Origin: Psychrobacter sp. Ps6
GTDB lineage: Bacteria; Pseudomonadota; Gammaproteobacteria; Pseudomonadales; Moraxellaceae
Length of the DNA stretch: 64,000 nucleotides
Reading direction: 5' to 3'
NCBI RefSeq assembly: GCF_022129235.1
Contig: NZ_JADQAI010000002.1
Location: forward strand, 1-64,000
The notes under the pieces were generated by a model. The model had not been told where the DNA came from, did not search any database, and saw only the letters and a list, made by a program, of their open reading frames with translations. Of this stretch, positions 14,210-57,841 are shown in pieces. A program made the translations under genes and the position numbers. Each line of letters starts with the position of its first letter. Within the stretch, counting starts at the first letter, position 1.

Positions 14210-14258
14210 GGATACACCTGATAACGTATATTAAGTGATGATAGATTCCAGCATGTTG

Positions 14259-30180: not shown

Positions 30181-31056
30181 GTGGTGATATCAGTGATAAG
30201 AGAGCTTAAAACCTTCGTTGCCGTTTGCGAGTTAGACAGCTTTGCCGCAGCAGCTCGACATATCAACCTGACTCAGTCTGCGGTCAGCGCACAAATCAAA
30301 ACGCTTGAAGACAACCTGGGGTTGTCGTTATTTACCCGCTCTGCTCGTGCTATTACGCTTAATCCGCAAGGCACGCGCGTATTACCGATTGCCAAAGAGA
30401 TTTTGGCGCTTTACTCCACAATGCAGCTGTCTTCAGATACTGACATTGCCAGCTATTACGGGCAGCTTAGGATTGGCTCGATCAACTCCGTGCAAGTGGG
30501 TATCTTACCAGAGGCGCTAAAGGCGATTACGTTGCTTGCCCCATTAATGCAGACAGAAATTGTCCCCGGGCGTGCTATAGAGTTATTTGAGAAACTAGAA
30601 GTCGGGGAGATAGATGCGGCGATCACCATTCAGCCAGCGTTTGCACTGCCAAAAGACATCGTTACCCAGTCTATTATGACCGAGCCTTACGTGCTCATCA
30701 GTCCCAAAAAATGGCCATTTCATAGCCTCAGGCAGATGCTTGAGCAGCATCCTTTTATTCATTACACCTTACAGTCCTCAGCGGGTGTGAAGTTAAATAA
30801 ATTCTTTAAACAACAAGACATCAAGGTCAATACGATCATGGAGATCAATGACCTTGATGCTATCGTTAGGATGGTGGAGTCGGGTCTAGGCGTGGCGTTG
30901 ATTCCATATGCAGGATTATGGATTAGAAGTACGCCGCCCGTACAAATTCACCATTTAGGGGATAACAGTTTGGTGCGTGAGGTTGTACTGGCATATCGTT
31001 ATACGGATCGTCAGCAACCACAGATCAATGCCTTAAAGCAAGCATTGGGACTGTAA
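30181..31056 (+). CDS. LysR-family transcriptional regulator
   Basis: A 291-residue LysR-type regulator: N-terminal winged helix-turn-helix (RELKTFVAVCELDSFAAAARHINLTQSAVSAQIKTLE) and a C-terminal periplasmic-binding-like co-inducer domain. GTG starts at 30181, 30184 and 30193 are possible; none has a convincing ribosome site. It is divergent from the truncated GntP permease, the usual arrangement for a LysR regulator and its target, so its natural target may be lost. It may now control other genes. Confidence 0.87.
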   Translation: MVISVIRELKTFVAVCELDSFAAAARHINLTQSAVSAQIKTLEDNLGLSLFTRSARAITLNPQGTRVLPIAKEILALYSTMQLSSDTDIASYYGQLRIGSINSVQVGILPEALKAITLLAPLMQTEIVPGRAIELFEKLEVGEIDAAITIQPAFALPKDIVTQSIMTEPYVLISPKKWPFHSLRQMLEQHPFIHYTLQSSAGVKLNKFFKQQDIKVNTIMEINDLDAIVRMVESGLGVALIPYAGLWIRSTPPVQIHHLGDNSLVREVVLAYRYTDRQQPQINALKQALGL

Positions 31057-35550: not shown

Positions 35551-35982
35551 TTATAAGCTCGACAGCAGAACACTCGTTTCGCTATTCAAAATGCCGTCAA
35601 TCTCTCTTACTTGACGCAGTACTTCATCAAATTCTCTTAAACTCGTCGTGTGTATTTCTGCCACCAAGTCCCATGCGCCATTGGTCGTATGTAGCTTAAT
35701 CAGTTGCGGGATGCCGCGCAGCTTCCTAATCACTTGTGACGTAGATTTGCCTGTCACCTCGATCATCATCATCGCTTTGACCGTTTCTTTATCTAGGGCC
35801 TCATGCACTCGAATCGTAAATCCTAAAATAGCGCCATTATGAATCAATCTGTCCAATCTATTTTGGACAGTGGCACGTGAAACTTTGAGTTTTTTTGCAA
35901 GAATTGAGATGGTTGCGCGGCCATCTTGCCGAAGCTCAGATATCAGCTCGCTATCTAAAGAGTCATAAGTATAGTACGCCAT
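35551..35982 (-). CDS. Lrp/AsnC-family regulator
   Basis: A 143-residue Lrp-type regulator from the ATG at 35982 (AAGGA nine bases upstream; ten more codons are open but without a ribosome site). N-terminal helix-turn-helix (LDSELISELRQDGRATISILAKKLKVSRATVQNRLDRL) and a C-terminal RAM ligand domain (MMMIEVTGKSTSQVIRKLRGIPQL). It is divergent from ornithine cyclodeaminase, arginase and a membrane protein, so it probably controls arginine or ornithine breakdown in answer to one of these amino acids. Confidence 0.88.
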   Translation of the reverse strand: MAYYTYDSLDSELISELRQDGRATISILAKKLKVSRATVQNRLDRLIHNGAILGFTIRVHEALDKETVKAMMMIEVTGKSTSQVIRKLRGIPQLIKLHTTNGAWDLVAEIHTTSLREFDEVLRQVREIDGILNSETSVLLSSL

Positions 35983-36150
35983 AAAAGTGCTTCCTTCATC
36001 AAGTTTTGACATTATGCTAAGTAGAGATTATCAATATGTCAAAAATACATCAATATTTAATAAATTATTGACATTTTAACTGACATTTATAGTTGGTAGG
36101 ATATTGATTGTCGGTTCAACAAATAATATTCATGGAAGGGAGCAACATTA

Positions 36151-37245
36151 ATGTCTAAATTTATCGTATCACAAAAGCAAGGTGTGCCATTTGTTAGCGT
36201 ACAGGCGATGGCTGAAATCATCAGTAATTATGGTATCGAACAGACCATAAAAGAATTGGTAGATGCGTTAGAGCAGGATTATCTTCGTTGGGATCAATTT
36301 GAAAAATCCAGTCGTTTTGCTTCTCATTCCAAAGACGGTGTCATAGAGCTCATGCCTGTCAGCGATGGTGACATGTTTGCGTGTAAGTATGTCAATGGCC
36401 ATCCTATTAATACCAAGCGCGATTTGCAGACGGTCGCAGCTTTTGGTGTATTGTCTGATGTTGATACAGGCTATCCAATTTTATTGACAGAGATGTGTAT
36501 TTTAACCGCACTACGCACGGCGGCGACCTCGGCATTGGTCGCCAAACACTGTGCGCCTAAAAACGCTGAAACGTTGGCGCTCATTGGTAATGGTGCGCAA
36601 GGAGAGTTTCAGGCGATGGGTATGAAAGCAGTGATTGGTATCTCAAAAGTGCGTTTATATGATGTCGACCCAGCTGCGTCTGAAAAAGTAGCGCATAACC
36701 TTGCCGATTCAGGCCTAGATATTATTATTTGCAAAACCGTAGAAGAAGCGGTTGAAGGGGCAGATATCATCACCACCTGTACCGCTGATAAGAAAAACGC
36801 CACGATTTTACGTGACGACATGATCAAAAAAGGCGTCTATCTCAATGCCATTGGTGGCGATTGCCCTGGCAAAACAGAACTTGATGCTGACATTCTGCTA
36901 AGAGCCGATCATGTCATTGTAGAATTTGAACCACAAACCCGTATCGAAGGCGATATCCAACAGCTCTCTCCAGACTTTCCTGTAACGGAATTTCACCGCA
37001 TCGTAAAAGGTGAGAAAGACATACGCACCAACGACAATAATTTAGTGGTATTTGATGGTGTCGGTTTTGCCTCAGAAGACTTTACGGCTCTAGTATTTTT
37101 GCGTGATTTGATCAAAAAACAGGACGCCTATGAGCTGCTTGATTTGATCCCTCATCAACAAGATCCTAAAAACCTCTATTCGGTAGTGAAAGCTCACAGT
37201 AAAAATCATAGTACGGTAACGCATGAAGCTGAATCTATGGCGTAA
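36151..37245 (+). CDS. ocd: Ornithine cyclodeaminase
   Basis: A 364-residue member of the ornithine cyclodeaminase/mu-crystallin family. The N-terminal substrate domain (ASHSKDGVIELMPVSDGDMFACKYVNGHP), the basic pocket KRDLQTVAAFGVL, and the NAD-binding GNGAQGEFQAMGM with the following acidic strand end YDVD are all visible; the closing stretch YLNAIGGDCPGKTELD fits the long OCD type. It converts ornithine to proline and ammonia. Followed by arginase, giving arginine to ornithine to proline. The ribosome site GGGAG is eight bases upstream. Confidence 0.9.
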   Translation: MSKFIVSQKQGVPFVSVQAMAEIISNYGIEQTIKELVDALEQDYLRWDQFEKSSRFASHSKDGVIELMPVSDGDMFACKYVNGHPINTKRDLQTVAAFGVLSDVDTGYPILLTEMCILTALRTAATSALVAKHCAPKNAETLALIGNGAQGEFQAMGMKAVIGISKVRLYDVDPAASEKVAHNLADSGLDIIICKTVEEAVEGADIITTCTADKKNATILRDDMIKKGVYLNAIGGDCPGKTELDADILLRADHVIVEFEPQTRIEGDIQQLSPDFPVTEFHRIVKGEKDIRTNDNNLVVFDGVGFASEDFTALVFLRDLIKKQDAYELLDLIPHQQDPKNLYSVVKAHSKNHSTVTHEAESMA

Positions 37246-37304
37246 GTGGGGGCTGTAGGTTTGAGCCGTTATAAAGTGTTTGATCCACTATAAAGTAAAT
37301 AGGC

Positions 37305-37376
37305 GCTGCTGAAATAAATTTTGCGCCGCCTCTGTCTGCGAAGGCACAGCAAGCCAGAAAAATTTGTTTCAGTAGC
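37305..37376. repeat. 72-base element with terminal inverted repeats (possible MITE/REP)
   Basis: The ends GCTGCTGAAATAAATTTT and AAAAATTTGTTTCAGTAGC are imperfect inverted repeats of about 18 bases around a GC-richer core (CTGTCTGCGAAGGCACAG, itself partly symmetric). It sits in the gap between ocd and arginase with GC content unlike its AT-rich flanks. I recognise no transposase; a small non-autonomous repeat is plausible. Confidence 0.6.
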
Positions 37377-37484
37377 ATGTGATACCGGATATATCTTTCT
37401 TATTTAGGACTGACTATAGCTAAGTAGTGAGAAAAAAATAAATTCAAATGATAAAAAATTGTTTTATTTAATGGAGACAAAATA

Positions 37485-38444
37485 ATGAATGATCTAATGA
37501 AAAACGTGCGAATAGTAGAAGTGTATTCAGATGTCGCAGGGCATAAAAAAGGCGCGTCACTAGGCATTGATGCATTGCGCGCGTCATCAAAAGAGATGAA
37601 TGCAGACTACTATGAAAAACTGCAACTTGACAGTATCAAAAATGAATATATCCATGAAGAAGAATCGCCATTTAAACATGCAAAATACGCTGATGTGATT
37701 GAGCCAGTTATCTCTAAACTAGCACACAAAATAAAAGAGATCAGAGAAGAGAATCAATTTCCTATCGTGATCGCAGGCGATCATTCTAGCTGTGCAGGTA
37801 CGATGCATGGTCTCAAAATGGCGCACCCTGATGCTGAGATCGGTGTGGTGTATATAGACGCGCATGCTGATTTTCATTCACCATACACCAGTGGATCAGG
37901 GAATATGCATGGCATGCCTTTGGCAATGGCCTGTGCAATCGATAACTTGGAATGTAAACGCAACGAGCTCTCTGACACAGAAAAAGAGTATTGGGAGCGA
38001 CTAAAATTTATGGCGTCCAACGAGCCATCAATTAAGCCAGAAAACGTGGTGTTTTGTGCGGTTAGAGATTATCAAGAAGAGGAAATGGAATTAATCAAAA
38101 GACATAAAATTCCTTTATATAGCGTGGCTGAAATAACCAAAAAAGGCATCAGTGCCACAGTAGCCGAAATCTTTAAAAAGCTAGAATATTGCGATCATAT
38201 TTATGTGTCGTTTGATGTCGATAGTGTTGATCCTTTATACGTTCCAGGAACAGGTACGCCTGCAATGAATGGTCTGTCTTATGAGCAAGCCATGCAGCTC
38301 AATATAGAGCTCATTAAAAATGAAAAAGTATGTTGCTGGGAAATGGCAGAAATCAATCCCTTATATAACAATTCAAAAGATGACTCAACGAGAATATTTA
38401 AAATTTTAGAAGAGGTTACACATTCTCTTTTAAATAATTACTAG
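37485..38444 (+). CDS. rocF: Arginase
   Basis: A 319-residue ureohydrolase. Metal-binding motifs: GDHSS (the first His, where agmatinases also have GDHS), DAHADFHSP (Asp/His cluster) and SFDVDSVDP, giving the binuclear manganese site. The spacing and ends are closer to arginase than to agmatinase or formimidoylglutamase, but the exact substrate is inferred from the neighbouring ornithine cyclodeaminase. It hydrolyses arginine to ornithine and urea. GGAGA lies eight bases upstream of the start. In one direction with ocd and a YjiH-type membrane protein. Confidence 0.85.
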   Translation: MNDLMKNVRIVEVYSDVAGHKKGASLGIDALRASSKEMNADYYEKLQLDSIKNEYIHEEESPFKHAKYADVIEPVISKLAHKIKEIREENQFPIVIAGDHSSCAGTMHGLKMAHPDAEIGVVYIDAHADFHSPYTSGSGNMHGMPLAMACAIDNLECKRNELSDTEKEYWERLKFMASNEPSIKPENVVFCAVRDYQEEEMELIKRHKIPLYSVAEITKKGISATVAEIFKKLEYCDHIYVSFDVDSVDPLYVPGTGTPAMNGLSYEQAMQLNIELIKNEKVCCWEMAEINPLYNNSKDDSTRIFKILEEVTHSLLNNY

Positions 38445-38477
38445 TATGAAATATCAAGAATGAGTTAAAGGGTATTT

Positions 38478-38509
38478 AACCTAAAAAATATTACCTAAAT
38501 TTTTAGGTT
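38478..38509. repeat. AT-rich hairpin between arginase and the YjiH-type gene
   Basis: Perfect inverted repeat AACCTAAAAA / TTTTTAGGTT with a 12-base loop in the 95-base gap. It may reduce read-through into the membrane-protein gene. Confidence 0.5.
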
Positions 38510-38539
38510 AGTTAAAAAGGGACGAAAGGTAAAAATAAT

Positions 38540-39955
38540 ATGGACATTATTAAAGCCAGCACTGCAAATCAAGATGCTAGCAGTGCTAATACCAGTATCA
38601 ATATCAAACAGTTTTTAAAGTTTTTTATACCCTCTATGATAGGGTTGATTGTCTTCGTATTTCCCATTCCCTATGTAGATGGTAAGTTTGTCAGCTATGC
38701 AGACGGATTCACCATTCCTATCGCTGTGTTAAAGGATTATATACAGGGTTATATGAGCGACTTTTTGCCATTGCTCGTTGTTACCTCAATTATGATTACA
38801 TTGGTTGGTAGCTTATATACCAAAATCATGAAACCTGCATTGATTTTAAACAATCACTTTTTGAATAACTTACTGAACGTCAAAACATCTTGGCTAATGC
38901 TTAGAATACTTGGTGCGTTTTTTGCTGTCGTGACCTATTTTCAATTTGGGTTTGAGACCATATATTCAGACAGTATTGGTGGTCTATTATTATATGAGCT
39001 CATGCCCATACTGTTTATTGTGTTCTTTTTAGCAGGATTATTACTGCCGTTATTGCTTGATTTTGGCTTACTAGAATTTGTTGGGGTTTTATGTACCAAA
39101 GTCATGAGACCGTTGTTTGGTTTACCGGGCAGATCCTCTGTCGACTGCTTGGCATCATGGTTAGGTGACGGCACTATTGGCGTATTACTAACGGATAAGC
39201 AATTGCAAAGTGGGTTTTATACCAAAAGAGAAGCAGCCGTGATTGCGACCAGCTTTTCAGCGGTTTCGGTTACCTTTTGCTTGGTGGTGATTTCTCAGGT
39301 CAAATTAGAAAGTTACTTTATCAACATGATTGGCGTGGTTGCGTTATGCGGTATTGTTTGTGCGCTCGTCGTACCAAAGTTATTCCCATTGTCTAAAATT
39401 GAAGATACGTATATCACAAAGAACGATGAGGTAGATTGCGAAGCGATTCCCGAAGGAAAAACGTTATTCAACTATGGCCTACACAAAGCCGTTCAAAAAG
39501 CAGACAAGAGCCCCAGTTTTTTGACTTTTTTAAACGATGGGTTAAAAAATATCTTGGATATGTGGATAGGAATTCTGCCTATCGTCATGGCAATCGGTAC
39601 TTTAGGGTTGATTGTGGCAGAAAAAACGCCTGTATTTGATTATTTAGGTATGCCATTTATTCCATTCTTAGAGCTGTTGAATATCCCATTCGCCGCAGAA
39701 ATGTCAAAAACGATCATGGTGGGTTTTGCAGATATGTTCTTGCCGGCTATTATTGGCTCTTCAATAGAATCAGAGTTAACGCGATTTGTCATCGCTTGCT
39801 TATCGGTCTCTCAATTGATTTATATGTCGGAAGTCGGCGGATTAATCTTAGGAACAAAAATCCCCGTTAGTTTCTTCCAGCTATTGGTGATTTTCCTATT
39901 AAGAACGGTTATCTCATTACCGATTATTGCGTTATGTGCTCATATGATCTTTTAA
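38540..39955 (+). CDS. YjiH-type membrane protein with nucleoside-recognition (Gate) domain
   Basis: A 471-residue protein with about ten transmembrane segments. The SVDCLASWLGDGTIGVLLTDKQLQSGFYTKREAAVIATSFS segment is the Gate-domain core seen in YjiH family proteins, and AEMSKTIMVGFADMFLPAIIG with LSQLIYMSEVGGLILGTKIP is the second conserved half. YjiH homologs are often encoded with amino-acid or purine catabolic enzymes; here the companions are arginase and ornithine cyclodeaminase, so transport of arginine or ornithine or export of a product is plausible. A terminator follows about 100 bases downstream. Confidence 0.78.
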   Translation: MDIIKASTANQDASSANTSINIKQFLKFFIPSMIGLIVFVFPIPYVDGKFVSYADGFTIPIAVLKDYIQGYMSDFLPLLVVTSIMITLVGSLYTKIMKPALILNNHFLNNLLNVKTSWLMLRILGAFFAVVTYFQFGFETIYSDSIGGLLLYELMPILFIVFFLAGLLLPLLLDFGLLEFVGVLCTKVMRPLFGLPGRSSVDCLASWLGDGTIGVLLTDKQLQSGFYTKREAAVIATSFSAVSVTFCLVVISQVKLESYFINMIGVVALCGIVCALVVPKLFPLSKIEDTYITKNDEVDCEAIPEGKTLFNYGLHKAVQKADKSPSFLTFLNDGLKNILDMWIGILPIVMAIGTLGLIVAEKTPVFDYLGMPFIPFLELLNIPFAAEMSKTIMVGFADMFLPAIIGSSIESELTRFVIACLSVSQLIYMSEVGGLILGTKIPVSFFQLLVIFLLRTVISLPIIALCAHMIF

Positions 39956-40203: not shown

Positions 40204-41853
40204 TCAACTCTTTTCCTCCACTAAATCTACCGTATCGACTTCAGGATGTGTGGTGTCATAGAGAACCGCTTTTATAAGGGCTATTCCCATGAGTACCATG
40301 ACGAAACTAAAAGGCAGTGCACCAATCACCATTGCCGTTTTGATTGCGCCCAATCCACCACTGATCAGTAGAACCCCAACAACCAATGCTAATATAACAC
40401 CCCAAAAGATAATGTGTGGACGACCTTTTGGACCTTCGTTACCACCTGAGTTGATGGTGTTGATAACCAAAATGGCCGAATCTAGCGTGGTGACTAAGTA
40501 AGTCAATAGTAAGACCAGAACTAAAATAGCCATTGCCCAAGCGGCATTAGGAGATAGCATCACATCCAGCATCGCCAGCAACTGGGACTCTTGACCGACG
40601 CTTGAGATAGCATCAGTACCACCTAATGTTAAATCGATTGCGGTACCGCCCACGACTGAGAACCAAATAAAACACATCAGTGCAGGTAGGATGACCGTAC
40701 CGAATAGATAAACACGAATGCTACGACCACGTGAAATACGGGCAAAGAACACCCCGACGAAAGGACCAAAGGCGATCCACCACGCCCAATAGAACACAGA
40801 CCAATCTTTTTGCCATGTGGACAACGTATCACCGACAGTCGTACCATCTGGCTGCCAAATCGTTGTTAGCAGGGCAGGAAGTGCAACCACATAGTCAAAC
40901 AAACCTAAGAAGAAAGATTGCAAACCAAAGAATGTCGAACCAAAGATTAAGAAAAAGGTAAACAGAATAAAGCTGAGCCACATGTTGAGATTAGACAGCC
41001 ATTTGACCCCTTTGCCAAGCCCTGACAATGCAGAGACGGTAGCGACCCCAACGATGACAATCAATGCAACGATAATCGCGGCCGCGGATGATTTTCCTTC
41101 AGCGTTGAGGAGCCAGTCGCCCATGCCAACACGGTACATGCTAGAAACAAATTGCTCAACACCAAACCCTAGTGTTTGTGCCACGCCCAAAAGCGTTGCA
41201 ATGACAGCGACAATGTCAATAGCATCACCGAGTCTACCAGACAGTTTTTTGCCAAAGATTGGCGCAAGCCCTGAGCGAATAGTAAGGGGTAGTTTACGGC
41301 GGAAAGAGAAATAGGCCATCGAAAGACCGACTAAAGAATAGCAAATCCATGCACTAAATCCCCAATGGAGAAAGGCCCATTTATACGCGTATCGCACGTT
41401 ATCAGCACCATAGCCTGTTGCCATACCTTGAATAACTTCAGGGTTATTGCCAAAGTGATACATTGGCTCTGCGGTGGCAAAGGTCAGCATGCCCACACCG
41501 ATACCGGCACCAAAAATCATCGCAAACCATGAGAAATTAGAAAACTCAGGTTTGTCCCCTTTGTCTCCTAAGACAAGCTTGCCATAACGCGGAATGAAGG
41601 CTAGGAACATGGCGACAAGTAAGAAAAAGGTGACCGATAAGATATACCATGTCGAGAAGTTACTGAGCAAGAAACTATTGATAGTGCCTAGTATGGCAAG
41701 CGAGCTTTCAGGGAAAATGACTGCCCAGAGAATGAGCAAGCCGAGTAAAATTTTTGCAGTAATCGTAACGTCTTTATTAAACCCTTCATAAAAGCCTTTT
41801 GTGGCGACTTTGATGGGTAATTTGGTTAAAGGTTTTCTACGGTTAAATTTCAT
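40204..41853 (-). CDS. dddT: BCCT-family transporter, probable DMSP/betaine uptake DddT
   Basis: A 549-residue member of the betaine/carnitine/choline transporter family with twelve transmembrane segments, from the ATG at 41853 (AAGGA seven bases upstream). Family signatures: GAGIGVGMLTFATAEPMYHFGNNP (the glycine-rich helix) and the substrate-box tryptophans in FYWAWWIAFGPFVGVFFARISRGRSIR. BCCT proteins import quaternary or sulfonium osmolytes with sodium or protons. It is encoded 183 bases downstream of dddD, in the same direction, the arrangement of known DMSP loci in which DddT imports DMSP. Assignment rests on context; glycine betaine uptake is an alternative. Confidence 0.85.
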   Translation of the reverse strand: MKFNRRKPLTKLPIKVATKGFYEGFNKDVTITAKILLGLLILWAVIFPESSLAILGTINSFLLSNFSTWYILSVTFFLLVAMFLAFIPRYGKLVLGDKGDKPEFSNFSWFAMIFGAGIGVGMLTFATAEPMYHFGNNPEVIQGMATGYGADNVRYAYKWAFLHWGFSAWICYSLVGLSMAYFSFRRKLPLTIRSGLAPIFGKKLSGRLGDAIDIVAVIATLLGVAQTLGFGVEQFVSSMYRVGMGDWLLNAEGKSSAAAIIVALIVIVGVATVSALSGLGKGVKWLSNLNMWLSFILFTFFLIFGSTFFGLQSFFLGLFDYVVALPALLTTIWQPDGTTVGDTLSTWQKDWSVFYWAWWIAFGPFVGVFFARISRGRSIRVYLFGTVILPALMCFIWFSVVGGTAIDLTLGGTDAISSVGQESQLLAMLDVMLSPNAAWAMAILVLVLLLTYLVTTLDSAILVINTINSGGNEGPKGRPHIIFWGVILALVVGVLLISGGLGAIKTAMVIGALPFSFVMVLMGIALIKAVLYDTTHPEVDTVDLVEEKS

Positions 41854-42035
41854 ATCTAATCCTTTAGATAGTATGCTTCTCGTTGAAATGAGTCTTAGGT
41901 GCCGCAATCCTTCCGGTCGCCTAATCCATATTATTCAAAGAAGGTCATTGTTTGGCCTATGCACAAACCTAACGGCGCTAAACGCGGCATCAAGCAATGA
42001 CACTTCCTGATTTAAATGGTTCATTAAATTTGAGG

Positions 42036-44549
42036 TTAACTTGGTAAGTATTCTTGACTCCAGCTATCGCTTACATAACCGCTTGCGATACTTTCCTCAA
42101 TTTGTGACTCGCTATAACCAAGCTCTTTCATGATTTGACGCGTTGAATGACCGAACTTTTCGGGCCGAGAAAGCGCGTATATCTTGCTATGCGTGGGACG
42201 AATGGCATAGGGGTCAAGTTGGGTGACTTTGTGACCACTTGGATGGTCTTCATAGGTCGAGAATGAGTAACTGCCACGATCAATACCTGGCGTGTCATCT
42301 GCTAGTCGGCTATATTCTGCGCGTAGCGCATTGATATCAGCACAAATAACGGCAGCAATATCCGCGGCTTGCAAACGATCTACCCATTCGTGAGCAGGTA
42401 TTTTTTGGAATGCGTTAGACAAGAATGAGGCACGGTCACTTTTTGCCAATTGGCTAAAACCTTCTAAGCCCTCGACTCTCTCGAAGTTGTCTACGTCAAC
42501 TTCATGCGCGTTTAACAATACATAGTTACCTGAGGAGGTGTAGTAAAAGCGCGTTAATTCATCATGACCATTGGTTTCGCGGCCTGATGGCTCATCAAAC
42601 AGTCCACGTTTTGCAAAGTCATAGCAATAAGGAATTTGTAGCAAAGCACTATTGGCAACGAGTGATGTCCGTCCGCGCCCGATACGTCCAGTACGGAATT
42701 TTTGATAAAGCGCCACACCAATACTCATCGCACCGCCAAAACCGCACATGACGTCGATGGTACCCACATGCGCATGCTCTTCAGGTGTATCCATTGCACC
42801 GCCGCAGCGCAGCATAATACCCGTGCAGGCCTGTACCACGTCATCGTAGCCAATAAAGTCGCTACATGGGCCTTTACGTACACCACTGAAGCAGTCCAAC
42901 TTACAGAAGATGGCTTCAGGATTTAAGGCTTTTAAACCTTCAGCATCTAATCCCATTTTCTTAATTTGCGTGTCGGTGGCATTCCAGACGATCACATCAA
43001 CCGACTTGACCAATTTTTCAAACAGCTCGCGGCCTTCGCCTTTGCCAATATCAGCAAGAATAGAGCGTTTGCCCGTCATTTGAGAAAGACCATAAATAAC
43101 AGTGTTCCAGCTGTCATAGAGCGGAGTGGCAGAATCAAGTTTGATGACCTCTGCGCCAAATCGTGCCAAGTAAGCGGCCGAATGTGGCCCTGCAATCACG
43201 TTACAAAGATCAAGGACGCGAACGCCGTCTAACCAACCACGTTTTTCACTGCTCTCATTAACTGAAGGCAATTTGGTTCTAAAGTTCTGGAACTTTGCTA
43301 AGGCTTCATCAAAGGTACTCGGCTTAGGCGGCTTGGGTTCTAACATAAGCTCGCCACATTCTTCTAGCCACACAATTGGGCCTGGCTGAATCATCTTGCC
43401 ATAAGTAGGGTCATCGACCTCGATCATCAAACCTGCCGTTTCTGCATGATCATCACGGATCCACTCTTGTAGCCAACGCTGCGGCGCGCCAGGGATACCA
43501 CGTTTACCAAAGATTTTTTGCCATTCTTTAGAGGTACGTAGTAAAAAGGCGTCTTTCATTTTTGCAGCGATATGATCTGCCCAGTACTTTGGCATGGGGT
43601 AAACACCAAGAGAGGTATCGGACGTCCACTCACTAGACGGTAGATACGTGTCATCTTCCTCCGTCAGTCCTTCCGCCACCAATTCATCGTACAATCCAAG
43701 TACTTCTAAGCAGCGCTTGGCATGATGTTTGTGGCTTGGGCATACCACATAAAACATACGACCATCTTTACACATATAGCTGCGGTAAAAAGGATCGAGC
43801 AGTTCTTGCAGATCTTCATAGTTCATATTCATTGGGATGCCTTCAACGCGGCGGCGTTGAATTTCAACTTCGCGCTGAGTTAAATAACGCTCAGGCATGT
43901 CTTCAACTTCTATGGAGTTGTAGCAGAGTCCTTCCATAACAGCAGCGGCAAGCGGCACTTCAATCGCGTCACCAAGGCCAGTATTTTCACGGGCTTGTAG
44001 GGCAAACACCACAGAAGAACCAGCTAACATGGCACCATAAGCTGAAGGTAGTGGTAGGGGTGAGAACGATGGGTTAATCCCCATGAGGACACGGTTCAAA
44101 CCCATGTCGGTAAATACGCCCGAGCTTGCTGAAACGATACTTTCGTAAGCACGTAGCTCACGGCGTCGCTCATCATTTGACGCAAATCCAGGGATGGACA
44201 AGGTGATCAGCTGCGGACGTTCTGCACGTAACGCGACCAAATCGAGTCCCATCTCTGCCATTTTGCCTGGGCGGAAACCTTCGATGACGATGTCGCTTTT
44301 CAAAATGAGTTGGCGGGCCTGTGCTAAGCCTTCCTCTGTTTTGAGATCGAGTTTGAGCATCAATTTATTGCGATTTAATATGGCGTTGGCAGGGCTTTGC
44401 CATTTTGGACCTGACGGTGGGTCTATATGAACCACGGTGGCGCCTAGGTCACCAAGCATCATACCTACAGCAGGACCAGCAATATATTGACCAAAATCGA
44501 TTACTTTGACACCTTTGAGTGGCAATTCACGAGTTTCTTGCATAGTCAT
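42036..44549 (-). CDS. dddD: DMSP CoA-transferase/lyase DddD
   Basis: An 837-residue fusion of two class III CoA-transferase (CaiB) domains, the length and architecture of DddD. The first domain (about 10-420) has Ser169 (LPSAYGAML) where CaiB enzymes carry the catalytic Asp, so it should be inactive; the second (about 440-830) keeps Asp599 in GTIDVMCGFGGAMS, near the position reported as essential in Marinomonas DddD (Asp602). The enzyme joins DMSP to CoA and cleaves it, releasing dimethyl sulfide and 3-hydroxypropionate or its CoA ester. Neighbours are the matching dddB, dddC and a BCCT transporter. An internal ATG at 44543 with a better spaced ribosome site is an alternative start. Confidence 0.92.
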   Translation of the reverse strand: MTMQETRELPLKGVKVIDFGQYIAGPAVGMMLGDLGATVVHIDPPSGPKWQSPANAILNRNKLMLKLDLKTEEGLAQARQLILKSDIVIEGFRPGKMAEMGLDLVALRAERPQLITLSIPGFASNDERRRELRAYESIVSASSGVFTDMGLNRVLMGINPSFSPLPLPSAYGAMLAGSSVVFALQARENTGLGDAIEVPLAAAVMEGLCYNSIEVEDMPERYLTQREVEIQRRRVEGIPMNMNYEDLQELLDPFYRSYMCKDGRMFYVVCPSHKHHAKRCLEVLGLYDELVAEGLTEEDDTYLPSSEWTSDTSLGVYPMPKYWADHIAAKMKDAFLLRTSKEWQKIFGKRGIPGAPQRWLQEWIRDDHAETAGLMIEVDDPTYGKMIQPGPIVWLEECGELMLEPKPPKPSTFDEALAKFQNFRTKLPSVNESSEKRGWLDGVRVLDLCNVIAGPHSAAYLARFGAEVIKLDSATPLYDSWNTVIYGLSQMTGKRSILADIGKGEGRELFEKLVKSVDVIVWNATDTQIKKMGLDAEGLKALNPEAIFCKLDCFSGVRKGPCSDFIGYDDVVQACTGIMLRCGGAMDTPEEHAHVGTIDVMCGFGGAMSIGVALYQKFRTGRIGRGRTSLVANSALLQIPYCYDFAKRGLFDEPSGRETNGHDELTRFYYTSSGNYVLLNAHEVDVDNFERVEGLEGFSQLAKSDRASFLSNAFQKIPAHEWVDRLQAADIAAVICADINALRAEYSRLADDTPGIDRGSYSFSTYEDHPSGHKVTQLDPYAIRPTHSKIYALSRPEKFGHSTRQIMKELGYSESQIEESIASGYVSDSWSQEYLPS

Positions 44550-44678
44550 CCATCCTTAGAATTTTGTTATGCGATTGCTATTAAAAATTAGAGCTAGTAA
44601 AAATGAGAACGATAAAAATAAGTGTTTGCTTAGCGGCGATAGCATAGAGATGAGCGGCCGCCAAACTGTATCGCTAAA

Positions 44679-44723
44679 GTGCTCGCTATCTATCCACCGG
44701 TGAGGTAGATAAAAAGCAAGCAC
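44679..44723. repeat. Imperfect 45-base hairpin between dddC and dddD
   Basis: Arms read GTGCTCGCTATCTATCCACC and, inverted, GTGCTTGCTTTTTATCTACC, with few mismatches. It lies in the 241-base gap between dddC and dddD. No T-run follows, so an mRNA-processing or attenuation role is possible but unproven. Confidence 0.55.
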
Positions 44724-44790
44724 CAGTGATTTACAAATTATTTGCTATTTTTGAGGACACCAATAACCCAGCACTCAAAAGACAATAGGA

Positions 44791-46281
44791 TTAAGTTGGC
44801 ATAGAGAACTGTTTCTCATCTCTCACTGCCGTGCTAGGCCAGCGCTGAGTGATGGTTTTGCGGCGAGTGAAGAATCTAACGCCGTCTGGTCCGTACATCG
44901 CCAAATCGCCAAACAATGAACGCTTCCAACCACCAAAGCTCTGTGATGCTACGGGTACTGGTAGCGGGATATTGACGCCAACCATACCGACTTCAATGTT
45001 GTCGATAAAGTGACGAGCCGCTTCACCATCGCGAGTATAGATACACGTACCATTACCATATTCATGGTCATTGATAAGTTGCAGTGCTTCAGCCATGGTT
45101 TCTACGCGCATGACTTGCAGTACTGGACCAAAAATCTCGGATTTGTAGCTGTCCATGTCTTTAGTAACATGGTCAATCAATGTTGGACCAACAAAGAACC
45201 CTTCTTCATAACCTTCTGGCTGAACGTTAGAGCCATCCGTAACTAGGGTTGCACCTTGATCAGCAGCACTCTGAATGTGCCCGACAACTTTAGATTTGTG
45301 CGCTTTGGTAATGACAGGGCCAAAATCGTTGTTTTTCTCTGAATGCACACCGAACTTGAGCTCTTCGATAGCAGGCTTTAGCGCCGCAATCATCTTGTCA
45401 GCGGTTTCATCACCGACGGCGACGGCAACAGACAACGCCATGCAACGCTCACCTGATGAACCAAACGCTGCGCCTAGCAGTGAAGTGACCACATTGTCCA
45501 AATCTGCATCTGGCATAACGATTGCGTGGTTTTTTGCGCCGCCTAGTGCTTGGCAACGTTTGCCTTGCGCCGCTGCGGTCGTGTAGATGTATTCAGCGAT
45601 AGGAGTTGAGCCAACAAAGCTGACTGCTTTAACATCTGGATGATGCAAAATGGCATCAACAGCATCTTTGCCGCCATTGACGACGTTGATAACCCCTTCT
45701 GGAAGCCCTGCTTCATGTAGTAGCTGTGCAATAAATAGGGTAGAGCTTGGGTCGCGCTCAGATGGCTTTAGGATAAAGGTGTTACCACAAACGATCGCCA
45801 TCGGGAACATCCATAGTGGCACCATCGCAGGGAAGTTAAATGGGGTGATACCAGCGACAACACCTAGTGGGTGAAATTCACTCCAAGAGTCGATATTGGT
45901 GCTGACATTACGGCTGTGCTCACCTTTTAGGAGCTCAGGTGCAGCGCACGCATATTCGACGTTTTCGATACCACGTTGTAGCTCACCTGTCGCATCGTGT
46001 ACGATCTTGCCGTGCTCTTCGCCAATGAGGCGGCAAATCTCGTCTGCATTTTGCTCAAGCAATTCTTTGAACTTGAACATGACGCGCGCACGTTTTAGTG
46101 GCGAGGTTTTGCTCCATGCTGGAAATGCTGCTTTAGCCGCAGCGACTGCTTCATCGATGGTTTTTTCGCCACCTAACGCAACTTTTTTACTGACTTCACC
46201 CGTTGATGGGTTGTAGACGTCTTGGGTTTGGCTGTCATTATTGACTAAGCTACCGTTAATAAAGTGTCCGATAGTTTGCAT
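44791..46281 (-). CDS. dddC: Malonate-semialdehyde dehydrogenase (CoA-acylating) DddC
   Basis: A 496-residue aldehyde dehydrogenase of the methylmalonate-semialdehyde dehydrogenase class: PFNFPAMVPLWMFPMAIVCGNTFILKPSE (cofactor binding), FVGSTPIAEYIY, GGAKNHAIVMPDAD and the catalytic Cys in GSSGERCMALS. These motifs (particularly GAKNH and SGERCMA) separate the CoA-dependent class from ordinary aldehyde dehydrogenases. In the DMSP pathway it turns malonate semialdehyde plus CoA into acetyl-CoA and CO2. The ribosome site AAAGGA is nine bases upstream. It follows dddB by 75 bases in the same direction, so the two are co-transcribed. A valine-pathway role alone is possible, but the context favours DddC. 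Confidence 0.9.
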   Translation of the reverse strand: MQTIGHFINGSLVNNDSQTQDVYNPSTGEVSKKVALGGEKTIDEAVAAAKAAFPAWSKTSPLKRARVMFKFKELLEQNADEICRLIGEEHGKIVHDATGELQRGIENVEYACAAPELLKGEHSRNVSTNIDSWSEFHPLGVVAGITPFNFPAMVPLWMFPMAIVCGNTFILKPSERDPSSTLFIAQLLHEAGLPEGVINVVNGGKDAVDAILHHPDVKAVSFVGSTPIAEYIYTTAAAQGKRCQALGGAKNHAIVMPDADLDNVVTSLLGAAFGSSGERCMALSVAVAVGDETADKMIAALKPAIEELKFGVHSEKNNDFGPVITKAHKSKVVGHIQSAADQGATLVTDGSNVQPEGYEEGFFVGPTLIDHVTKDMDSYKSEIFGPVLQVMRVETMAEALQLINDHEYGNGTCIYTRDGEAARHFIDNIEVGMVGVNIPLPVPVASQSFGGWKRSLFGDLAMYGPDGVRFFTRRKTITQRWPSTAVRDEKQFSMPT

Positions 46282-46356
46282 AGTTTATGTCCTTTAAACA
46301 TGTTTGTTATTGGTAGGTTGATAAGTAAATGAAGGCGACTTTGATACTACAGAGCG

Positions 46357-47538
46357 CTATGCGTGAGCCGTACTATTGTCATCCCACAGCATGGTATAAA
46401 GCTGAATCATTTCTTCAAGATTGGGTATGCGAGGGTTATTGTTAGGGGAGCCCGATGCAAATGCTTGCTCACACATCGTGTTAACAAGTTTGTCAAAGTC
46501 GGCGCGCTGCACACCGAATTCTGCCAGCGTAGGCACATGCAACTCTTTATTTAGGTCTTTTAAAAAGCGCACTAAATTGGTGTTGGCTTGATCGTCGGTG
46601 TCGCTAGTATCCGCGATACCTAGGGCACGCGCGCAGTCAGCATAACGGTCAGGCGCGCTTGAGATGCCAAATTCAGTAATGGTTGGCAGCAGCATGGCAT
46701 TTGAGAGGCCGTGCGGTACATGGAAAAAAGCACCAATCGGACGACTCATACCGTGTACAAGCGCAACTGATGAGTTACAAAAAGCGATACCAGCTAAGGT
46801 AGAGCCAAGCATCATTGCCTCGCGAGCCGCTTCGTCTTTACCATTGCGATAAGCCGTTTGGATATTAGGTCCAATCAGACGCAGCGCAGCCAATGCTTGC
46901 TGATCGCTATAGGCATTGCGTTTAGGGCTAATGTACGCTTCGATAGCATGCGTCATCGCGTCAATGCCTGTATCTGCGGTAGTACGCGGCGGTACACTGA
47001 GCGTCAGGCTAAAATCGATAATCGCTGCTATAGGCATGAATCCCATACCCACGCACAATAGTTTTTCGTTGTTGAGATCATCTGTAATGATGGTAAAGCG
47101 AGTAACTTCTGAACCAGTACCAGCCGTGGTTGGTATGGCAATGATGGGCAAACCCGTTTCATCGACTTGACGCGGGAATTTATAGTCACGCATATCGCCA
47201 CCAAATCTACCTAAGATAGAAATGGCCTTAGCGCTATCGATAGGGCTGCCACCGCCTAGCGCGATAAGACCATCATAGTCTTTCGCTTTGACTTGAGAGA
47301 CGCCAGCGCTGATAGACATTTCAGTAGGCTCTGGCACAGTGTCCGAGAACACATCTGCACTGATCTGCGCTTCTTTTAAAATGCCTTGAATATTATCGAC
47401 ATAGCCAAGCTTGACCATCATATCGTCAGTGATAATCAGGGGTTTTTTGATACCCAAACTTTTTAATATCTGCGGTAGCTTTTGGCAAGCATCGCGGCCA
47501 ATTTCCATCGTTCTTGGCAGAAGGATACTGTGCGACAT
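46357..47538 (-). CDS. dddB: Iron-containing alcohol dehydrogenase DddB (3-hydroxypropionate dehydrogenase)
   Basis: A 393-residue group III iron-dependent alcohol dehydrogenase. The NAD-binding GGGSPIDSAKA (about 96-106), TTAGTGSEVTRF, metal-ligand Asp and His in GIDAMTHAIEAYIS and further His in VALVHGMSRPIGAFFHVPHG are all present. In DMSP loci DddB oxidises 3-hydroxypropionate to malonate semialdehyde, the substrate of DddC, which is encoded just downstream. It is the first gene of the minus-strand dddB-C-D-T set and starts 101 bases from a perfect palindrome shared with the divergent IclR gene, the likely control site. Confidence 0.9.
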   Translation of the reverse strand: MSHSILLPRTMEIGRDACQKLPQILKSLGIKKPLIITDDMMVKLGYVDNIQGILKEAQISADVFSDTVPEPTEMSISAGVSQVKAKDYDGLIALGGGSPIDSAKAISILGRFGGDMRDYKFPRQVDETGLPIIAIPTTAGTGSEVTRFTIITDDLNNEKLLCVGMGFMPIAAIIDFSLTLSVPPRTTADTGIDAMTHAIEAYISPKRNAYSDQQALAALRLIGPNIQTAYRNGKDEAAREAMMLGSTLAGIAFCNSSVALVHGMSRPIGAFFHVPHGLSNAMLLPTITEFGISSAPDRYADCARALGIADTSDTDDQANTNLVRFLKDLNKELHVPTLAEFGVQRADFDKLVNTMCEQAFASGSPNNNPRIPNLEEMIQLYTMLWDDNSTAHA

Positions 47539-47638
47539 AGTTACTCATCCTTGTATTAATAACTTCCATTATTAGCTTGATAGGCCGTTTATTCGTCGTA
47601 AGAAGGACTGACAAAATGAATCATACCTAACAATAAAA

Positions 47639-47675
47639 TTTCACATAACGATAAATATTTTATCGTTATGTGAAA
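47639..47675. promoter_or_regulatory. Perfect palindrome (17-base arms) between dddB and the IclR gene
   Basis: TTTCACATAACGATAAA and its exact reverse complement separated by three bases, about 100 bases from both start codons. The position and symmetry fit an operator for the IclR-type regulator encoded divergently. The core half-site CATAACGATAA recurs once upstream of acuI. Confidence 0.8.
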
Positions 47676-47779
47676 GGTAACAGAATATGTTTATGATGAC
47701 AAGACGCAAAAGCATAAATTTTATCGCTATAATGAATAAATTTATTTGCTGAGCGTCAGCTAAAGGTTTGGAGTAATTA

Positions 47780-48556
47780 ATGAGTGAGGCTAAGAAGAGG
47801 AAAGGATCAAGCGTGGAGCGTGTTTTGCAGATCGTAGAAGTGCTGGCAAGCTCCCAAAGACCGATGAGTGTCAGTGATTTATCAGAAACATTAGAGGTAC
47901 CCGTACCCAGTATGTATCGATTGCTGGATCAGCTGCAGAGCCTTGGGTTTATTCAATTAGATTTGCCAGGGAAAGTCACCTGTGGAAAGCGCACTTATAA
48001 GCTTGCGATGAACTTATTACAAAATAGTGATTTCAAAAATGAGAGGCTGGCGATACTAAATGAGCTATCAGCGAAAATAGGGGAGACAGTTGGCATTGCG
48101 ATTTTGCAAGACTTAGATGTGGTGTATGTCGACCGCGTTATGTCGGATTGGCCACTACAAATATTTTTACCGTCGGGCTCTCATGTACCTGTATGGGCCA
48201 GTGCCAGTGGTAAGTTATTACTTGCACAGCTGTCGGATGATAAATGTGAGCGTATCGTTGAGAAGATGTCGATACATGCGCTCACGACCAATACTCAGAC
48301 AGATAAACAGCAACTGATGCAAACGATTATAAAAACACGCGAGACCAAAGTGGGTATAGACAACGAGGAGTTTATTCCAGGAATGGTAGCTTGTGCGGTC
48401 ATGATTCCTAATGGCGAGCAACAAGCATTTGCCACGCTGTTTACCCATGGTCCCACCGTCAGAAAAAGTATGGATGAATTACTCAGTTATTTGCCGCTGA
48501 TGCAAGAGGCTGCTGATGAGTTGTCCATCATTTTTAATCAAAATTATGAATTATGA
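47780..48556 (+). CDS. IclR-family regulator of the DMSP genes
   Basis: A 258-residue IclR-type regulator: N-terminal winged helix (SSVERVLQIVEVLASSQRPMSVSDLSETLEVPVPSMYRLLDQLQSLGFIQL) and a C-terminal effector domain with ETVGIAILQDLDVVYVDRV and HVPVWASASGKLLLAQL. IclR proteins respond to small aromatic or carboxylic acids. It is divergent from dddB, and acuI follows about 350 bases downstream in the same direction after a terminator. The natural inducer is probably DMSP, 3-hydroxypropionate or acrylate, as inferred from context. Confidence 0.88.
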   Translation: MSEAKKRKGSSVERVLQIVEVLASSQRPMSVSDLSETLEVPVPSMYRLLDQLQSLGFIQLDLPGKVTCGKRTYKLAMNLLQNSDFKNERLAILNELSAKIGETVGIAILQDLDVVYVDRVMSDWPLQIFLPSGSHVPVWASASGKLLLAQLSDDKCERIVEKMSIHALTTNTQTDKQQLMQTIIKTRETKVGIDNEEFIPGMVACAVMIPNGEQQAFATLFTHGPTVRKSMDELLSYLPLMQEAADELSIIFNQNYEL

Positions 48557-48636
48557 ATAGAGAAGTAATTTGTAAAATACAGCAGTGTATTAACTCTCAA
48601 TCAAGACATCATCGCTTCTATAACGCATAGAATAAT

Positions 48637-48684
48637 AAAAAAGGTTGGCAGTACCATACGCAATATGGTGCTCCCAACCTTTTA
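48637..48684 (+). terminator. Terminator of the IclR gene
   Basis: Long stem AAAAGGTTGG...ACCAT / ATGGT...CCAACCTTTT, about 20 base pairs with two mismatches, seven-base loop, T-run after it. Confidence 0.88.
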
Positions 48685-48750
48685 TTGTTGAAGCGATTTA
48701 AAGGCTTGTACACACATATCTTGTTATCATAAATCGATTATGTTATTTTT

Positions 48751-48779
48751 CATAACGATAATTTTTATATCGATATATG
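48751..48779. promoter_or_regulatory. Second operator-like site upstream of acuI
   Basis: The half-site CATAACGATAA (48751-48761), identical to the core of the dddB/IclR palindrome, is followed by the imperfect opposite arm TATCGATATATG. It lies about 140 bases upstream of acuI, suggesting that the IclR protein controls acuI as well. Confidence 0.6.
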
Positions 48780-48902
48780 AAGCTATATTAAATTTGAAAC
48801 ATACTATTGAAATGCTAATACATAACTGAGGTAACTAAAGGCAAAGAATCTCCTTGCCAAAAATACTGAGGTTATAACTCTAAGCATGTACAAGGAGTGA
48901 AT

Positions 48903-49883
48903 ATGAAAGCCTTTTTAGTAGAGAAAGTAGCTGATAGAGAATTTTCTGGCGCGATACAAGAAGTTCCTGTCCCAGAATGCAATAAAGATGAAGTCGTCAT
49001 AAAGACAACTTATTCTTCATTAAATTATAAAGATGCTTTAAGCTCCATCGGTAATCCTGGAGTAACTAGAAAATTTCCTCATATCACTGGCATTGATGTA
49101 GCCGGCGTGGTGCACGAAACGACATCCGATATCTTCGCCGTTGGAGATAAGGTACTGGTTACAGGCTATGACTTAGGTATGAATACGGATGGTGGACATT
49201 CAGAATTTGTTAAAGTCCCAACTTCATGGGTTGCAAGAATCCCAGATACGATCACTGACAAAGAAATCATGACTTTTGGTACTGCGGGATTAACGGCAGC
49301 TTTAAGTATTAATGAGTTATTAGATAATGGTCTAAAGCCAGAAGACGGTGAGATTTTAGTCACTGGTGCGACTGGTGGCGTAGGCTCTATAGCGGTTTCT
49401 ATACTGAAAAAAATTGGCTTTACCGTTGTTGCCGTATCAGGGAAAGAGGAACAAATTGATTATCTTAAACAGATTGGTGCGTCAGAAGTTATTCTCAGAG
49501 ACACTTTTAATGAGAATGCTAAAAAGCCTATGATGGCTGAGAGATATGTAGGGGTTGTCGATACGGTAGGCGGTGATATTTTAGCCAATGCCTTGAAATA
49601 TATAAAATACGATGGGGTTGCTACTTGCTGCGGCCTCACAGCATCACATGAACTCAATACCAATGTATTTCCATTTATTTTGAGGGGAGTAAGACTAATC
49701 GGTATCGATTCGGTTGAATGTAAGCTTGAGAAGAAGCAAGCAGCATGGGACAAGCTGGCTGGTGAGTTTAAAATAGCGACGTTAGATAGTATCACTAGTG
49801 AGATTGGTCTAGAAGATATTACAACCACTTACGCATTGATGTTAGAAGGAAAATCCGTAGGCCGATATGTAGTAAAAATATAA
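48903..49883 (+). CDS. acuI: Acryloyl-CoA reductase AcuI/YhdH-type
   Basis: A 326-residue medium-chain reductase from the ATG at 48903 (AAGGAG five bases upstream; a GTG at 48897 is less likely). YhdH/AcuI features: TYSSLNYKDALSSIGN at the N-terminus, HITGIDVAGVV, TFGTAGLTAALSINEL, and the NADPH site VTGATGGVGSIAVSILKK. No catalytic-zinc cysteine set, as expected. AcuI reduces acryloyl-CoA to propionyl-CoA with NADPH and protects cells from acrylyl-CoA in DMSP users. It stands at the end of the ddd region with an operator-like site of the same type as dddB. Confidence 0.85.
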   Translation: MKAFLVEKVADREFSGAIQEVPVPECNKDEVVIKTTYSSLNYKDALSSIGNPGVTRKFPHITGIDVAGVVHETTSDIFAVGDKVLVTGYDLGMNTDGGHSEFVKVPTSWVARIPDTITDKEIMTFGTAGLTAALSINELLDNGLKPEDGEILVTGATGGVGSIAVSILKKIGFTVVAVSGKEEQIDYLKQIGASEVILRDTFNENAKKPMMAERYVGVVDTVGGDILANALKYIKYDGVATCCGLTASHELNTNVFPFILRGVRLIGIDSVECKLEKKQAAWDKLAGEFKIATLDSITSEIGLEDITTTYALMLEGKSVGRYVVKI

Positions 49884-56719: not shown

Positions 56720-57841
56720 ATGAAGCATGTTACTTATATTCATGAACATCCAAACTGGACTGAATGGCAATGGTCGGACAAAAAGCTATTGCCACTCGTC
56801 AGTCGTGTGCGGATATTACAAGGCCATTTACTAGGAAAGCTGCTAACACTAGGGTTCGATCTGAATGTTGAGGCACAATTAGATGCGGTGACCTTAGAGA
56901 TTATCAAAACTTCTGAGATAGAAGGTGAGACACTAAATGATGAGCAAGTTCGTTCTTCAGTTGCGCGGCACTTAGGGCTGGATAATGCCAGTATGCTAAC
57001 CACTACTCGTGAGATAGATGCAGTGGTAGAGATGATGCTAAGTGCCACCTATCGTTATCAACAACCGTTATTATTAGATGATCTACTCGGATGGCATCGA
57101 GCATTATTTCCAAATGGATATAGTGGGCTTTATCGTATTCAAGCAGGCAGTATCCGTGATGATAGTAAAGGACCAATGCAAGTAGTGTCTGGTGGGTATG
57201 GTCGTGAGCAGGTCCATTTTATTGCCCCAAGTGCAGATAGGTTACCAGATGAGCTAGATAAATTTTTATCATGGTTTAATACTTCGTCAAATAAGCAAGA
57301 CGATATAGATTTGGTCATAAAAGCAGGTGTTGCTCATCTATGGTTTGTGACTCTGCATCCATTTGATGATGGAAACGGTCGACTAACACGAGCACTCACA
57401 GAACGAATGCTGGCAAAAAGCGATAACAGCGCCCAACGCTTTTATAGTATGTCAGCGCAAATTCTTAAACAGCGTAACGACTATTACAAAATACTAGAAC
57501 GTACGCAAAAAGGTGATAAAGATATCACGGATTGGCTGGTGTGGTTTTTGCAAACGCTAGAGCAATCCCTCATTATAGCTCAAGAAACCACGGATAAAAT
57601 TATCAATAAGGCAGGCTTTTGGCAGACGCATCGACAGCATGCTTTAAATGATAGGCAAGTGAAGATGTTAAATATTTTGCTGACTGATTTTTATGGCAAA
57701 CTCACCACTAAAAAATGGGCGACCATGACCAAGTGCTCTATAGATACTGCACTACGAGACATTAATGATTTAGTAGAGAAGGGTATGATGAAAAAATCTG
57801 TAGCATCAGGACGCAGTACGAGTTATGAGTTGGTTTTATGA
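56720..57841 (+). CDS. Fic-family AMP-transferase with N-terminal inhibitory motif
   Basis: A 373-residue protein. An N-terminal helical domain carries the inhibitory motif TSEIEG (64-69; the S/T-x-x-x-E-G type with Glu68), so this is a self-inhibited class II Fic protein with its own antitoxin-like helix. The catalytic motif HPFDDGNGRLTR (213-224) is intact, including His213, and the flap region SGGYGREQVHF precedes it. A C-terminal winged-helix-like segment (TMTKCSIDTALRDINDLVEKGMM) follows. It would transfer AMP to a hydroxyl of a target protein. GAGGAA lies just upstream of the start. A decayed partial copy is 7 kb upstream. Confidence 0.92.
   Translation: MKHVTYIHEHPNWTEWQWSDKKLLPLVSRVRILQGHLLGKLLTLGFDLNVEAQLDAVTLEIIKTSEIEGETLNDEQVRSSVARHLGLDNASMLTTTREIDAVVEMMLSATYRYQQPLLLDDLLGWHRALFPNGYSGLYRIQAGSIRDDSKGPMQVVSGGYGREQVHFIAPSADRLPDELDKFLSWFNTSSNKQDDIDLVIKAGVAHLWFVTLHPFDDGNGRLTRALTERMLAKSDNSAQRFYSMSAQILKQRNDYYKILERTQKGDKDITDWLVWFLQTLEQSLIIAQETTDKIINKAGFWQTHRQHALNDRQVKMLNILLTDFYGKLTTKKWATMTKCSIDTALRDINDLVEKGMMKKSVASGRSTSYELVL

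Follow-up and report, generated by a model that had tools for sequence, protein, structure and literature searches.

A predicted IclR regulon joining the DddD pathway genes and acuI through a shared operator motif in Psychrobacter

The 64,000-nucleotide stretch of the Psychrobacter sp. Ps6 genome analysed here (contig NZ_JADQAI010000002.1, positions 1 to 64,000; hereafter the window) carries a predicted cluster for the breakdown of dimethylsulfoniopropionate (DMSP) through the DddD route. In this cluster, dddT, dddD, dddC and dddB on the minus strand face an IclR-family regulator gene, iclR, and iclR is followed by acuI, for an acrylyl-CoA reductase-type protein. The locus raises the question of what an IclR protein does beside dddD, and whether acuI belongs to the same unit. 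We hold with moderate confidence, from sequence comparison, that a single IclR represses dddB-dddC-dddD-dddT and acuI through one motif, and that 3-hydroxypropionate, or a close C3 derivative, would release both.

The candidate operators are two palindromes. Operator 1 (47639 to 47675, unstranded; TTTCACATAACGATAAATATTTTATCGTTATGTGAAA) has 17-bp arms and lies in the gap between dddB and iclR. Operator 2 (48746 to 48782, unstranded) repeats the motif before acuI; its 25-bp core is exact, and 20 of its 37 positions are self-matching. Written as ATAWCGATA-N7-TATCGWTAT, the motif had two exact matches in the entire 3.48-Mb genome, which were these two operators. The next best place had 2 mismatches, and 48 sites were found at up to 3 mismatches. 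The pattern was derived from such sites, and therefore a matrix was trained on 15 sites from other genomes only. Across the 64-kb window this matrix gave 58.2 for the dddB-iclR site and 35.9 for the acuI site. No other place scored above -6.9, and the top score over 40 resampled windows was 3.3. The comparison set comprised 105 Psychrobacter genomes, with the window genome as G000. Operator 1 was kept in all 10 of them that have dddD, the copy in G092 being the most diverged. The set held 19 exact sites in total, and 16 of these lay beside a gene of the window's IclR clade or beside an acuI of the window type (at least 85% identity).

The location of the palindromes suggests repression. A dddB promoter, TTGTCA-N17-TACCTT with TG before the -10 element, was predicted at 47674 to 47703 on the minus strand and runs into operator 1. 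The predicted acuI promoter (TTGTTA-N17-TATTTT, also with TG before the -10; 48720 to 48749, plus strand) adjoins operator 2, which overlaps its -10 and +1. A block of the form TTGNNA-N17-TAnnnT with the TG ended 2-4 bp before the 25-bp core at 17 dddB or gntP promoters and at 4 acuI promoters. At acuI the spacing from promoter to core was 1-2 bp shorter, and these promoters were missed by a promoter matrix of fixed register and found when the register was left free. The operator covers the predicted -10 and start, so that a bound protein would block transcription. Between iclR and acuI stands a hairpin of the intrinsic-terminator type (48639 to 48683, plus strand; -25.9 kcal/mol, z -6.98, equalled by 0 of 200 shuffles), which was not listed by a simple terminator scan. 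Because of this strong hairpin, acuI is probably transcribed separately, as a unit with its own promoter.

The presence of the operator tracked the IclR gene within the genus. The IclR clade (76-100% identity) occurred in 19 Psychrobacter genomes, and all 19 had a site with 0 or 1 mismatch upstream of iclR. For an IclR paralogue at 68-75% identity, no site with up to 3 mismatches was present in the 9 fetched loci (L105-L113, one of them just 5.6 kb long). This paralogue mostly faces about seven open reading frames, which were matched across loci by length only.

The same association was seen outside the genus. An order-wide search of 390 genomes found dddD in 20 genomes besides the window genome, and 20 of the 22 non-own matches were fetched. 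The two left out, G327 and G379, were incomplete; G379 belongs to a SAR92-like family and its dddD match breaks off at a contig end, and 6 of the 7 genomes of that family were examined. In these six dddD loci, iclR and lysR lie behind dddB-dddC. The SAR92-like IclR is 39-41% identical to that of the window and separated from it by starred tree branches, and we rejected close orthology of the two proteins on this identity. In all six loci the best operator match of the whole locus fell in the gap between dddD and dddT or dddB, with 2, 2, 2, 2, 3 and 4 mismatches. As a control, we delimited by hand the gap that separates dddD from the closest ddd gene in 10 of 13 fetched loci that have LysR only, and there the best match had 5-7 mismatches. 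The other three LysR-only loci (L267, L269 and L275), scanned whole, had no site with up to 2 mismatches. Nor did 74 other non-Psychrobacter dddD loci have such a site anywhere, two of them having one at 3. The contrast between the six IclR-bearing loci and the LysR-only loci indicates that the operator follows the IclR across families.

The first-pass annotation had named LysR proteins as the regulators of the best-known DddD loci and had considered an IclR paired with a DddD-AcuI set worth checking. We surveyed 100 dddD loci and kept the 98 with full-length dddD, dropping the incomplete L227 and L276; 80 of the survey loci were the best 80 of a longer scan, among the matches listed. A LysR-family match anywhere in a fetched locus was counted if it exceeded 30 bits. 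Among these dddD loci, some LysR-family gene was present in 86 of 98, which agrees with LysR as the usual partner; IclR was present in 13 and acuI in 8. The 13 loci with IclR were six from Psychrobacter, six SAR92-like and one unrelated, low-scoring locus. Within Psychrobacter, IclR is itself the rule. The order dddT-dddD-dddC-dddB facing iclR was found in all 10 dddD genomes (the window and L047-L055), and no ddd-linked LysR was found among the searched open reading frames between 36151 and 54052 of the window. We also considered whether the window genome encodes, at another place, a ddd-type LysR like that of SAR92; this was rejected for the one query used, which found none at E<=1e-20. With the same query, the best matches in the other nine dddD-bearing Psychrobacter genomes were at most 37% identical, and G019 had none.

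The part of the earlier claim that concerned acuI was not supported. In the 105 genomes, dddD was found in 10, dddB in 20 (E<=1e-110) and the window-type acuI in 5. The latter lay downstream of iclR in the window genome and its very close relative G088, and occurred without dddD in G013, G089 and G046. With iclR present in 10 of 10 dddD genomes and acuI linked in 2 of 10, iclR is part of the core cluster and acuI is not. We therefore rejected acuI as a fixed member of a DddD-AcuI set. In G089 (locus L057, 14425 to 15045), a truncated dddC remnant (76% identity, residues 303-496) lies beside an iclR with its operator. This locus may be a decayed module that has retained acuI under the operator.

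From these arrangements and from known enzymology, the following scheme can be proposed. DddT would import DMSP, which DddD would convert to dimethyl sulfide (DMS) together with 3-hydroxypropionate or the corresponding CoA ester. DddB and DddC would carry 3-hydroxypropionate to acetyl-CoA, and AcuI would clear acryloyl-CoA leaking from 3-hydroxypropionyl-CoA. IclR would bind the palindromes overlapping both predicted promoters and repress the dddB operon and acuI, until accumulating 3-hydroxypropionate, or a close C3 derivative, freed both together. We infer the binding, the repressor role and the choice of 3-hydroxypropionate over DMSP as signal. AcuI may also provide the detoxification or propionyl-CoA branch proposed in the first-pass annotation; the window genome has a gene of the PrpD type. 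A joint response of dddB and acuI fits the sensitivities of an Escherichia coli yhdH mutant, reported in PMC3338564 to be hypersensitive to acrylate and, to a lesser degree, to 3-hydroxypropionate.

The choice of signal was guided by the contexts of the iclR-dddB-dddC module. It stands beside dddD in 10 genomes. In G054 the module, with its operator, lies beside a gene for a dddX-like acyl-CoA synthetase and a BCCT transporter gene; G054 was the only one of the 105 genomes with a dddX-like gene (E<=1e-100). A GntP-type permease gene lies between iclR and dddB in G040, G020, G069 and G015, and in G027 and G028 the module is accompanied by genes of the enoyl-CoA hydratase and hydroxyisobutyryl-CoA hydrolase types. 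Because the DddB/DddC pathway is common to most of these contexts, the signal is probably 3-hydroxypropionate or a near derivative and not DMSP. G028 has a second operator-like site (L152:9354) with 0 mismatches before a BenE-type transporter gene, and G027 has one with 1 mismatch (L154:8650) before a neighbour of equal length. The BenE-type transporter of G028 is a possible further member of the regulon.

Several observations weigh against this regulon. Three exact sites lay apart from both the IclR clade and window-type acuI. They are the second site of G028, a site that precedes an MMSDH gene in G038, and a site of G064 in the gap from dddB to a GntP-type permease gene. At up to 1 mismatch the 105 genomes held 52 sites, 22 of them beside iclR or acuI, and the reversed pattern gave a background of 17. 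Three genomes have dddB without this IclR; G064, with its exact site, is one, G026 has a site with 2 mismatches, and G006 has none with up to 2 mismatches near dddB. The sites of the window genome and G088 are near copies, which leaves about three independent acuI cases. In L258, a LysR-only locus, the gap site with 5 mismatches equals the best match of the whole locus. On the promoter side, a generic scan gave no excess (19 sites, where shuffles gave an expectation of 22.7), shuffle tests of single promoters were mostly not significant, and an equal-scoring alternative promoter was also obtained for acuI of G013. A near-identical promoter block occurs at 25799 to 25824 of the window, before a gene for a TctC solute-binding protein. 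Because this block has no operator, the dddB and acuI promoters are best described as an ordinary promoter carrying an added operator. A LysR-family gene is present in the window at 30181 to 31056, about 11 kb from dddD; a fumarase-type lyase gene starts on the same strand at 31438, and the LysR gene looks unrelated to the ddd cluster. Finally, several IclR-family proteins are activators.

The loci of G064 and G006 (L149 and L150) share an arrangement of their own, in which dddB faces a GntP-type permease gene and an MMSDH gene and a ddd-type IclR is absent.

The existence of IclR-family activators allows another reading of the same IclR and the same sites, in which the protein would sense DMSP and act as an activator or dual regulator, as is reported for the LysR protein DddR of Marinomonas. 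DddR is described as an activator in PMC13104084. Known ddd clusters are induced by DMSP, and PMC10746254 describes dddD, dddC and dddB of SAR92 as rising with DMSP. The operator, however, lies over the predicted -10 and +1 and not upstream of the -35. DMSP as the signal is also difficult to reconcile with the occurrence of the module in genomes that lack a dddD or dddX-like match, beside GntP-type permease or hydratase genes. We regard this alternative as unlikely, and retain repression with release by 3-hydroxypropionate.

A second alternative is that acuI is an accidental neighbour with its own function and history, and that another AcuI-type protein performs the detoxification. The linkage to dddD in just two genomes would agree with this, as would the base composition of acuI (40% guanine-cytosine content, like the flanks, compared with 45-49% in dddT, dddD, dddC and dddB). 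Many genomes of the genus also have another protein of the YhdH/AcuI type (about 45-50% identity), and the copy in the window genome is 49% identical. Against this, the operator is present before acuI in 4 of the 5 genomes with the window-type gene, two of them without dddD. These four are the ones that have the IclR clade; G046, which lacks the clade, lacks the operator. The other AcuI-type gene of the window genome has no operator site within 200 bp upstream. When the sequences before acuI of G000, G013 and G089 are compared, conservation is concentrated in the promoter and operator, besides the stretch adjacent to the start codon. We consider an accidental acuI very unlikely. Slightly less probable again is binding of the palindrome by another regulator with iclR as a passenger: a different IclR paralogue could do so, because mmsA-type genes carry a related site and the mmsA cluster of the window genome has its own IclR, but the co-occurrence of site and IclR in 19 of 19 Psychrobacter genomes and 6 of 6 SAR92-like loci, with nothing comparable in the 10 LysR-only gaps, speaks against it.

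The mmsA-type genes also point to a possible origin of the IclR regulon. The window genome contains, at 7831 to 14836 of locus L285 (G000:C4:115000-134000), a cluster of mmsA, an acyl-CoA dehydrogenase gene, two hydratase-type genes, mmsB and an IclR paralogue. It resembles a valine-pathway cluster; mmsB was assigned above cut-off as 3-hydroxyisobutyrate dehydrogenase, and the IclR is 39% identical to that of the ddd cluster. An operator-like site with 3 mismatches lies about 145 bp before this mmsA. Related sites (0-3 mismatches) were found 105-159 bp before 9 of 11 MMSDH genes in ten genomes, a count partly biased by the sites of G038, G064 and the window genome's C4 copy, which were known beforehand. 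For comparison, the entire window genome has 48 sites at up to 3 mismatches. The substrate 3-hydroxyisobutyrate is the methyl homologue of 3-hydroxypropionate. These features suggest that the ddd regulator and operator were derived from an mms-type system. More broadly, and tentatively, at somewhat short of an even chance, an IclR subfamily with an ancestral operator close to AACGATAc-N5-gTATCGTT might govern semialdehyde-dehydrogenase modules that oxidise short 3-hydroxy acids. Such modules would include the valine mms cluster, acting on 3-hydroxyisobutyrate, and dddB-dddC, acting on 3-hydroxypropionate. For the dddB-dddC module, dddD, a dddX-like gene, a permease or hydratases would serve as interchangeable front ends, and acuI would join by acquiring the operator.

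The identities of the six genes, placed by the first-pass annotation between 40204 and 49883, were borne out: all six frames are open and each matches its expected family, which supports the reading as a cluster of the DddD type that has an IclR of its own and a reductase of the AcuI type. The enzymes look like those of the ordinary DddD pathway. iclR (47780 to 48556, plus strand), the predicted repressor of the 3-hydroxypropionate/DMSP regulon, was assigned by its synteny in the dddD genomes, by the tree and by a profile search, which found both the N-terminal HTH_IclR domain (PF09339) and the C-terminal IclR_C domain (PF01614). acuI (48903 to 49883, plus strand) encodes a YhdH/AcuI-type acrylyl-CoA reductase. 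It scored above the cut-off of the acrylyl-CoA reductase family TIGR02823 (419 against 297.25 bits) and below that of the curated AcuI equivalog NF051456 (332.3 against 440 bits), and given the latter we describe the protein as one that may work like AcuI. Among the best 120 matches listed, its nearest named relatives outside Psychrobacter were Arcobacteraceae proteins (78-80% identity). The ATG at 48903 is most likely the start, rather than the earlier GTG at 48897, because AAGGAG precedes it and the closest database relatives are mostly 326 amino acids long.

On the minus strand, dddB (46357 to 47538; PF00465/PF25137) encodes an iron-containing alcohol dehydrogenase with 3-hydroxypropionate as predicted substrate, and dddC (44791 to 46281) a predicted malonate-semialdehyde dehydrogenase of the MMSDH family (TIGR01722, 668.5 bits against a cut-off of 448.5). 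dddD (42036 to 44549) encodes a predicted DMSP lyase of about 837 amino acids in which two class III CoA-transferase domains are fused (PF02515 twice). It is 86% identical over its full length to the recorded DddD of Psychrobacter sp. J466 (D0U568). The earlier statement that all domains and catalytic motifs were present was correct for the domains and not for the motifs. In an alignment with 9 homologues at 69-86% identity, D599 in the C-terminal half was invariant and aligned with the CoA-transferase aspartate, which we take to be the catalytic one, and the N-terminal half has S169 where simple CoA-transferases have aspartate. dddT (40204 to 41907; likely true start ATG 41853) encodes a BCCT transporter (PF02028, 476 bits). 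Its locus counterparts in the 9 other dddD-bearing Psychrobacter loci are 84-99% identical. The best solved relative of DddT is a trimethylamine transporter (290 bits), and solved DddT entries reached at most 204 bits; its predicted role as a DMSP transporter is based on the BCCT family and gene linkage. The guanine-cytosine content of the flanks is about 41-42%, and that of iclR is 43.9%.

Comparison with known systems places the regulon in context. The clusters of Halomonas sp. D47 and HTNK1 also have acuI near a DddD cluster, as described in PMC13104084, and they differ in having two regulators, LysR and TetR, where Psychrobacter has one operator motif at both promoters. According to the same source, the ddd genes of strain D47 are controlled by AcuZ, a LysR protein with 3-hydroxypropionate and acrylate as ligands, and acuI is controlled by AcuR, a TetR protein with DMSP and acrylate as ligands. 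No TetR gene lies beside the Psychrobacter acuI, whose neighbours are iclR and a TonB receptor gene. The LysR search described above, which found none in the window genome, used the SAR92-like query and not AcuZ. In SAR92 the cluster dddTBC-iclR-lysR, with IclR and LysR beside dddD, is already described in PMC10746254. SAR92 thus shares with Psychrobacter the position of iclR beside dddB and dddC and, in the SAR92-like loci, the related operator; it differs in keeping the LysR gene, in the distance of its IclR and in having no acuI in the six fetched loci.

Psychrobacter sp. J466 belongs to the same genus, and this IclR may already be present in its ddd cluster. In Psychrobacter sp. D2, dddB and dddC are likewise partners in the dddX cluster, as described in PMC8163506, with DddX instead of DddD. 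G054, which carries the same iclR and operator, was likened to it by gene type and not by the D2 sequence. The acuI of Arcobacter nitrofigilis (Arnit_0112), next to dddY, corrects the acrylate sensitivity of an E. coli yhdH mutant according to PMC3338564. It is linked to another lyase, and its likeness to the window acuI comes through Arcobacteraceae relatives and not through Arnit_0112 itself. The literature searched contained nothing joining Psychrobacter, DMSP and IclR; the original J466 paper was outside its scope, and a prior mention there is possible. For dddD, IclR, acuI and DMSP together, the sole match in that literature was the SAR92 paper PMC10746254. The new part would be the predicted regulon, in which a single IclR governs both dddBCDT and acuI and the operator recurs in more than one genus.

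Other genes were also noted in the window. To the left of the cluster (35551 to 39955) are genes for an Lrp-type regulator (assigned by eye), an ornithine cyclodeaminase, an arginase-like protein and a Gate-domain transporter, which look like an arginine/ornithine catabolic set. A Fic-domain protein with DUF4172 is encoded at 56720 to 57841, and an open frame of 2793 amino acids occupies the left end (48 to 8429).

Bacterial cleavage of DMSP is a source of climate-active DMS. If the proposed regulon is true, the DMS output of these Psychrobacter would be set by a downstream metabolite and not by DMSP, unlike the two-regulator scheme reported for Halomonas, and the IclR gene noted in SAR92 clusters would gain a precise predicted binding site. 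If the broader origin in 3-hydroxy acid modules is also true, DMS release would be commanded by an intermediate that arises without DMSP too.

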